From the NCBI RefSeq assembly GCF_013035425.1, contig NZ_WQHX01000001.1:434001-498000 (forward strand): a stretch of 64,000 nt of DNA. Reading direction: 5' to 3'. Under the pieces are notes generated by a model. The model worked only from the letters and a program-made list of their open reading frames with translations. It did not search any database and was not told where the DNA came from. This stretch comes from Ruegeria arenilitoris (GTDB lineage: Bacteria; Pseudomonadota; Alphaproteobacteria; Rhodobacterales; Rhodobacteraceae). Of the stretch, positions 45,596 through 46,845 are shown piece after piece. The position numbers and the translations under genes are program-made. Within the stretch, counting starts at the first letter, position 1, and the number at the start of each line of letters is the position of its first letter.

Positions 45596-46486
45596 TTATG
45601 CCGTAAGCCCTTCGGGTTCGGGCAAGCCATTAGCGCGGCAACAAGCGGTCAGAGTGTTGGCCAGAAGGCATGCAATCGTCATTGGTCCAACACCGCCCGG
45701 CACAGGAGTGATCGCCCCTGCCCGTTCAACTGCGCTTGCGTAATCTACATCACCAACCAACTTGTTCTTACCATCGCGTTCAATCCGGTTGATCCCAACG
45801 TCAATTACCGTTGCTCCCTCTTTGATCCAATCGCCAGGAACCATCTCGAGGCGGCCCACAGCGGCCACGACAATATCGGCGCGACGCACCACGTCAGGCA
45901 GGTCCTTAGTGCGGCTATGCGCGATTGTGACGGTGCAACTATCCCCAAGAAGCAATTGAGCCATCGGTTTACCGACAATATTCGATCGACCGATTACAAC
46001 CGCATTCATGCCGGACAGTGACCCATGATAATCACGCAGCATCATCAAACATCCCAATGGCGTACAAGGTACCATCGATTTCTGTCCGGTGCCCAAAAGC
46101 CCCACATTGGAAATATGGAACCCGTCAACATCCTTGGCCGGATCAATTGAGTTGATCACAAGATCTTCGTTTAAATGCTTTGGAAGGGGAAGCTGAACCA
46201 GAATTCCGTGTACCGCGGGATCCTTGTTCAATTTGTCAATCAGTGTCAGCAAATCCTCTTCGGAGGTATCGGCATCCAACTTATGCTCGTACGAGTTCAT
46301 CCCCACTTCGACGGTTTGCTTGCCCTTTGACCGTACATAAACTTGGCTTGCCGGGTCTTCGCCCACCAGAACGACGGCTAATCCTGGGATAATACCGTTT
46401 TCCTCTTTCAGCCTGGCAACCTGGTCGGCAACCTGTGCGCGCACTCTAGCCGCAAAGGCCTTGCCATCGATAACCTGTGCTACCAT
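45596..46486 (-). CDS. folD: bifunctional methylene-THF dehydrogenase/cyclohydrolase
   Basis: A 296-residue FolD that interconverts methylene-, methenyl- and 10-formyl-tetrahydrofolate with NADP. Signatures are VGEDPASQVYVRSK with the catalytic Lys around 55, HGILVQLPLP, KDVDGFH and the Rossmann motif VVIGRSNIVGKPMA. It works with Fhs, encoded 0.4 kb upstream on the same strand. Its ATG overlaps the end of the broken chorismate mutase gene. Confidence 0.96.
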   Translation of the reverse strand: MVAQVIDGKAFAARVRAQVADQVARLKEENGIIPGLAVVLVGEDPASQVYVRSKGKQTVEVGMNSYEHKLDADTSEEDLLTLIDKLNKDPAVHGILVQLPLPKHLNEDLVINSIDPAKDVDGFHISNVGLLGTGQKSMVPCTPLGCLMMLRDYHGSLSGMNAVVIGRSNIVGKPMAQLLLGDSCTVTIAHSRTKDLPDVVRRADIVVAAVGRLEMVPGDWIKEGATVIDVGINRIERDGKNKLVGDVDYASAVERAGAITPVPGGVGPMTIACLLANTLTACCRANGLPEPEGLTA

Positions 46487-46845
46487 CCTAAGTTTCCTTT
46501 CTTCAAAAACGATAGGGCGCAGTCGCCCCCGCCTGCTCTGTCATTGCCTAACGCAAGTTCCTCACGTGCGATCAACCAGTCAATCAAAATGCGCCAAAGC
46601 TTCTCGGCCAAATCTGGATCCTTCCCCAAATCTTCGGAACCCGCACGCACACACTGCTCCACTTCCTCCACCCTGTCCGGAGCTCGTTCCGGTAAACCTA
46701 ATGCCGGTTTTTACTCGAACGCTCTGTCGATGTAACTTATGCGCTTCATCAACATCTCGATCAATTGGCGGTCAAGTTCGCGGAACTGCCTCTGCAGATC
46801 ACGCAGGAAATAACAATCGCGCAGCGGTTTCCGAGAGTGCGTCAA
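46480..46845 (-). pseudogene. chorismate mutase (AroQ type) broken by an in-frame TAA
   Basis: On the leftward strand a single frame encodes an AroQ-type chorismate mutase of about 121 residues (start probably TTG at 46845 after GAGGAG; possible TTG at 46863). It reads RDCYFLRDLQRQFRELD and MLMKRISYIDRAFE, then meets TAA (46711-46713), then continues unbroken with KPALGLPERAPDRVEEVEQC and LAEKLWRILIDWLIAREEL. The stop lies one residue before the lysine expected to bind the substrate, in the usual AxELK context, so it may derive from a Leu codon by one change. The 44-residue front piece cannot be active; a 63-residue tail could restart at GTG 46671. It sits between fhs and folD. Confidence 0.8.

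Follow-up and report, generated by a model that had tools for sequence, protein, structure and literature searches.

An in-frame stop codon within a gene for a chorismate mutase raises the question of whether the strain that carries it can still make its own phenylalanine and tyrosine, and of whether the gene was broken recently, long ago or only in the assembly. The case considered here lies in a window of 64,000 nucleotides (the whole stretch of DNA analysed) from Ruegeria arenilitoris, a species represented by one genome of 4.79 Mb in 26 contigs. A minus-strand frame at 46845–46480, situated between fhs and folD, encodes a chorismate-mutase-type protein and is interrupted by a single TAA, which the first-pass annotation took for a recent nonsense mutation or a base-call error. 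We are confident that the segment at 46540–46842 on the minus strand is instead a decayed and likely non-functional copy of the gene linked to fhs and folD, and that a separate, intact mutase would supply prephenate for phenylalanine and tyrosine.

The frame reads LTHSRKPLRDC...AFE*KPALGLP...GNLGW*; its 45th codon is TAA (46711–46713), and a lysine follows immediately. Both the translation of the frame and a profile search of the whole genome bear out the interruption. Read across the TAA, the frame matches PF01817 with 53.7 bits (E 9.5e-14) and one stop inside; when the two pieces are searched separately they score 26.1 bits (46480–46710, E 1e-5) and 15.2 bits (46714–46845, E 0.025), both below the Pfam cut-off of 27 bits. 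Upstream lies fhs, encoding formate-tetrahydrofolate ligase (46898–48574; PRK13505, 948.9 bits against a cut-off of 652), and downstream folD, encoding methylenetetrahydrofolate dehydrogenase/cyclohydrolase (45596–46486; PRK14188, 506.4 bits against a cut-off of 396). All three are on the minus strand, in the order and orientation seen in relatives, and the two neighbours are open, conserved and matched only once each in this genome. We also considered whether TAA might be read as sense in this organism and rejected the idea, because the adjacent fhs ends in TAA and the codon therefore acts as a stop there.

Codon-by-codon alignment with intact Ruegeria orthologues extends over 101 codons (46540–46842), throughout which the frame is kept with no further stop besides the TAA. 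For these comparisons we used 48 intact orthologues out of the best 80 named loci (L073–L119 and L131). The TAA falls at orthologue codon 44, which is leucine in all 48, and precedes the conserved lysine 45; this lysine, which the first-pass annotation expected to contact the substrate, aligns with K42 of PchB. The codon aligned with the orthologue start methionine (46840–46842) is ACG, encoding threonine, and one codon upstream of it there is a TTG (46843–46845) preceded by GAGGAG. At the other end, the codon after residue 101 (46537–46539) is a stop in 45 of 46 relatives, where the window has the sense codon AGA; over the 46 loci the native stop is TGA in 39, TAA in 6 and TAG in 1. With the native stop lost, the frame continues to a TAG at 46480–46482 and overlaps the start of folD by 7 bases, whereas in 45 of 46 relatives a gap of 40 to 69 bases separates the gene from folD; for the one remaining relative the distance reads 920, probably owing to a mis-set folD match. 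A 63-residue frame runs from a GTG at 46671 to this same TAG (46480–46671), and its overlap with folD is possibly a chance coupling.

The reading frame is thus disabled in three ways, by the internal TAA and by the loss of the start methionine and of the native stop. In addition, codon 17 (46792–46794) encodes glutamine in the window and arginine in all 48 intact orthologues, at the position of R14, an active-site arginine of PchB. We took an uninterrupted frame and the arginine of the first helix as the marks of a working AroQ-type mutase; the window copy has a TAA within the one and glutamine in place of the other, although R34, K45, R57 and E94 are retained. In place, strand, spacing and its 101-codon frame the copy resembles the fhs-folD-linked protein of other Ruegeria; it differs from that protein in its internal stop and in having lost the start methionine, the native stop and a number of invariant residues.

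The damage extends well beyond these landmarks. Across the 48 intact orthologues 45 columns are invariant, and the window copy differs at 13 of them, the start methionine and R17 included, whereas any one of the intact genes, left out in turn, differs at two invariant positions at most. Private changes were counted at columns at least 90% conserved, in the 46 loci whose flanks are complete (L085 and L102 were left out), and amount to 16 in the mutase gene of the window; none of the other 39 ingroup genes has more than three (40 sequences in all). The neighbouring genes of the window have 2 private changes among 503 conserved positions (fhs; relatives up to 14) and 5 among 262 (folD; relatives up to 11). 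Estimates of rate over 273 triples, formed from 39 ingroup genes and seven outgroups, give a window-specific dN in the mutase gene of about 0.24 (smallest value 0.20), some five times the 0.048 of the relatives (largest 0.11). The corresponding values are 0.013 and 0.012 for fhs, and 0.021 and 0.008 for folD, which is somewhat raised. By codon position, differences in the mutase gene are 0.26, 0.28 and 0.46 for the window and 0.12, 0.08 and 0.36 among relatives. The excess of dN and of private changes in the mutase gene and not in fhs, with folD only slightly raised in dN, points to relaxed selection on the mutase gene in this lineage.

Selection was not absent throughout. The window-specific dN of 0.24 is below the dS of 0.78 as a branch average, so constraint acted on part of the branch, and the resulting dN/dS of 0.31 compares with about 0.10 for relatives. 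A simple mixture suggests that about one quarter of the branch evolved free of constraint, on dS values that are near saturation. Some pairs yield no synonymous value (37 of 46 folD pairs and 45 of 46 mutase pairs are usable, and 160 and 233 of the 273 triples), and because of this and of the near saturation any dates are only rough. The divergence is also uneven along the gene, being greatest at codons 11–20 and 41–50, while codons 81–90 are as similar to those of relatives as relatives are to one another (0.83 in both cases). A separate observation concerns the flanking genes, whose third-position G+C in the window (45596–48574) is 0.59 for fhs and 0.55 for folD, against medians of 0.76 and 0.77 in relatives; these two genes also show high synonymous divergence, and together the two features make it seem that the lineage has shifted in composition.

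A plausible course of events is that this copy has already been under relaxed selection for some time, and that its product would now be inactive. If translation starts at the TTG at 46845 it would yield a piece of about 44 residues, and a further piece of 63 residues, possibly made from the GTG at 46671, would be devoid of the conserved lysine. Decay of this kind is the ordinary loss of a dispensable second gene.

How the TAA itself arose is a separate matter. The window copy aligns with its relatives without any net frameshift, so that its two halves are joined in one frame, as originally described, and over the first 120 bases the ungapped alignment is the best one against the seven relatives compared. 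When the whole gene is aligned with lenient gap costs, a gapped alignment scores higher for 27 of the 48 relatives, or 29 when the ends are free, and against 12 of the 48 a compensating pair of one-base gaps encloses the TAA and scores slightly better. Among pairs of intact relatives, 385 of 1128 likewise prefer gaps at these lenient costs. Judged from these alignments, either a substitution or a compensating pair of one-base indels is a possible origin of the TAA. As the frame is identical on both sides of it, the conclusion that this is a pseudogene is independent of the indel question.

A recent nonsense point mutation in a gene that otherwise still worked would agree with the single internal stop, the lack of a net frameshift and the survival of some active-site residues. 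It leaves unexplained, however, the additional loss of the start methionine, the native stop and R17, the change at 13 of 45 invariant residues and the excess of dN, and we consider this explanation highly improbable. We give even less credence to a base-call or assembly error at 46711–46713, since a fault confined to one codon should leave the remaining codons conserved, and they are diverged; that fhs and folD alongside are open and conserved argues further against generally poor sequence. With so many changed positions beyond the TAA, no error at one codon can be the explanation, and the copy is better described as an old pseudogene.

Slightly more room, though still very little, is left for a changed function of the two halves or of a read-through product, be it as a split protein or in the form of a short leader by which translation is coupled to folD. 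The continuation of the frame past the TAA, its overlap with the start of folD, the 63-residue frame opened by the GTG at 46671 and the good conservation of codons 81–90 are all compatible with such a role. Set against them are the loss of R17, the position of the most diverged stretches at codons 11–20 and 41–50, the lack of the conserved lysine in the 63-residue piece and the lack of any overlap with folD in 45 of 46 relatives. The first-pass annotation named as its own refuting case close relatives that share the stop and have a conserved shorter protein, and none was seen: 46 of the 54 genus genomes have a full-length copy without stops. A large protein search found 198 proteins, and the 120 among the matches listed are no more than 69% identical to the protein of the window, the closest of these reaching 69%, which speaks against a changed function.

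If the fhs-folD-linked copy is decayed, is there a gap in the synthesis of phenylalanine and tyrosine? It had been proposed that the strain would need another mutase; this holds to the extent that the copy in question served these pathways, but no such gap is predicted, as the genome contains an intact housekeeping mutase. A search for other AroQ or AroH proteins, advised in the first-pass annotation, recovers a second PF01817 gene at G000:C20 (L161:5606–5902), open and encoding 98 residues from ATG, which has ffh to one side of it and rpsP and rimM to the other. It exceeds the curated cut-offs of both PRK09239 (145.7 against 120) and TIGR01795 (112.2 against 107.55), and the one stop counted within its match is, by its coordinates, its own terminator. 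Orthologues above the PRK09239 cut-off are found in all 54 genus genomes. Replacement by an AroH-type mutase was considered as well and rejected, as PF07736 has no match anywhere in the window's genome. Prephenate dehydratase and prephenate dehydrogenase domains are present in the genome, and these together with the intact housekeeping mutase predict no gap in the supply of either amino acid. On this gene content the strain is predicted to make its own phenylalanine and tyrosine and would be expected to grow without them. What appears to be a break in a central pathway is the decay of a second, dispensable gene, and auxotrophy should not be inferred from it. Between ffh and the housekeeping mutase gene there are, in addition, three PF13302 GNAT acetyltransferase frames in a row (L161:5899–7534).

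The presence of a universal housekeeping mutase in the genus raises the further question of what a PchB-like mutase between fhs and folD is retained for in many relatives. The two proteins belong to the same family, PF01817, but the fhs-linked orthologue falls short of the housekeeping cut-offs, with 46.9 against 120 for PRK09239 and 39.5 against 107.55 for TIGR01795. A profile made from 20 orthologues and compared with solved structures finds PchB, the isochorismate pyruvate lyase of salicylate biosynthesis, as its best match (E 2e-11), with chorismate mutases at 1.5e-7 and weaker. These sequence comparisons place the intact gene closer to PchB than to the housekeeping mutase. The orthologues align with PchB over 89 residues, such that R14, R31, K42 and R53 of PchB correspond to R17, R34, K45 and R57 of the orthologues (numbering counted on the alignment), while Q90 of PchB is replaced by glutamate in all 46 orthologues compared. 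According to PMC12607891, which cites Kunzler 2005, K42, R53 and Q90 of PchB are critical, and the Q90E substitution lowers lyase activity by about 80%.

Assignment to named families is less clear-cut. Among NCBIfam models one intact orthologue is nearest to TIGR01803, a chorismate mutase family protein, at 68 against a cut-off of 73.35, and it reaches 63.3 bits against a cut-off of 126 for the isochorismate pyruvate lyase model PRK07075, below the cut-off in both cases. Most named sources label the fhs-folD-linked protein chorismate mutase and some isochorismate pyruvate lyase. Of two PF00425 chorismate-binding enzymes in the window's genome, one scores best with anthranilate synthase, below the cut-off with only part of the protein scored, and the other with aminodeoxychorismate synthase, above the cut-off of one such model; neither scores best with isochorismate synthase, and no source of isochorismate was found in this genome. 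One tentative and rather doubtful proposal is that the intact Ruegeria gene may encode a distinct PchB-like enzyme acting on chorismate or isochorismate in a context of one-carbon and folate metabolism, and not a mutase for phenylalanine and tyrosine. The window's genome would then be a natural knockout in an otherwise intact operon, and could serve as such in studying the role of the intact gene. No paper on the fhs-folD mutase gene was found in the open-licence literature, judged by its listings.

The locus is widely shared among relatives. In the best 80 named loci (of 224 relatives), the best being that of R. lacuscaerulensis HKCCA6521, fhs and folD flank the gene on the same strand in 70; folD alone is found in 4, two of which begin at a contig end, and neither gene in 6. 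With the protein of an intact relative as query, the fhs-folD copy is full-length and free of stops in 46 of the 54 genus genomes, a total that counts the window's own (80–100% identity), broken in the window's genome, and unmatched in 7. We considered the seven as gene losses and rejected this, since in five of them (G010, G016, G018, G035 and G063) fragments of folD or fhs start within the first bases (1 to 6) of a contig, which makes assembly gaps likely; the folD pieces are paired in two contigs in G016, G018, G035 and G063, and in G010 the end of fhs is 23 bases away from a contig end. Ruegeria pomeroyi is reported in PMC4744692 to have two fhs copies that are nearly identical, which makes a collapsed duplicate cassette the likely cause of the missing matches. 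In the other two, G015 and G020, with stated completeness of 99–100%, neither fhs nor folD is matched, perhaps because a repeat contig was dropped. Unmatched genomes should be read with caution, as they may reflect assembly gaps at a duplicated cassette and not losses of the gene. Family-wide, a match at E 0.001 or better is present in 74 of 198 genomes, with some of these matches weak and with only 25 first-look candidates scored in many genomes, so many members may do without the gene.

Two further observations concern copies elsewhere. The Ruegeria genome G003 has two cassettes of the gene with folD (L172:1–400, G003:C20, and L171:1–400, G003:C17), in one of which the mutase gene is intact; in the other a mutase remnant with several stops and gaps is followed by a full-length folD match. 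This remnant is a second, separate decay of the fhs-folD-linked mutase gene. A diverged paralogue with 53–54% identity is found outside the fhs-folD operon in four genus genomes, G017, G029, G071 and G073 (L162–L165), and a remnant of the paralogue with two stops in G002 (L166:3699–3881); in L163 and L166 the paralogue is preceded by a TetR-family regulator.
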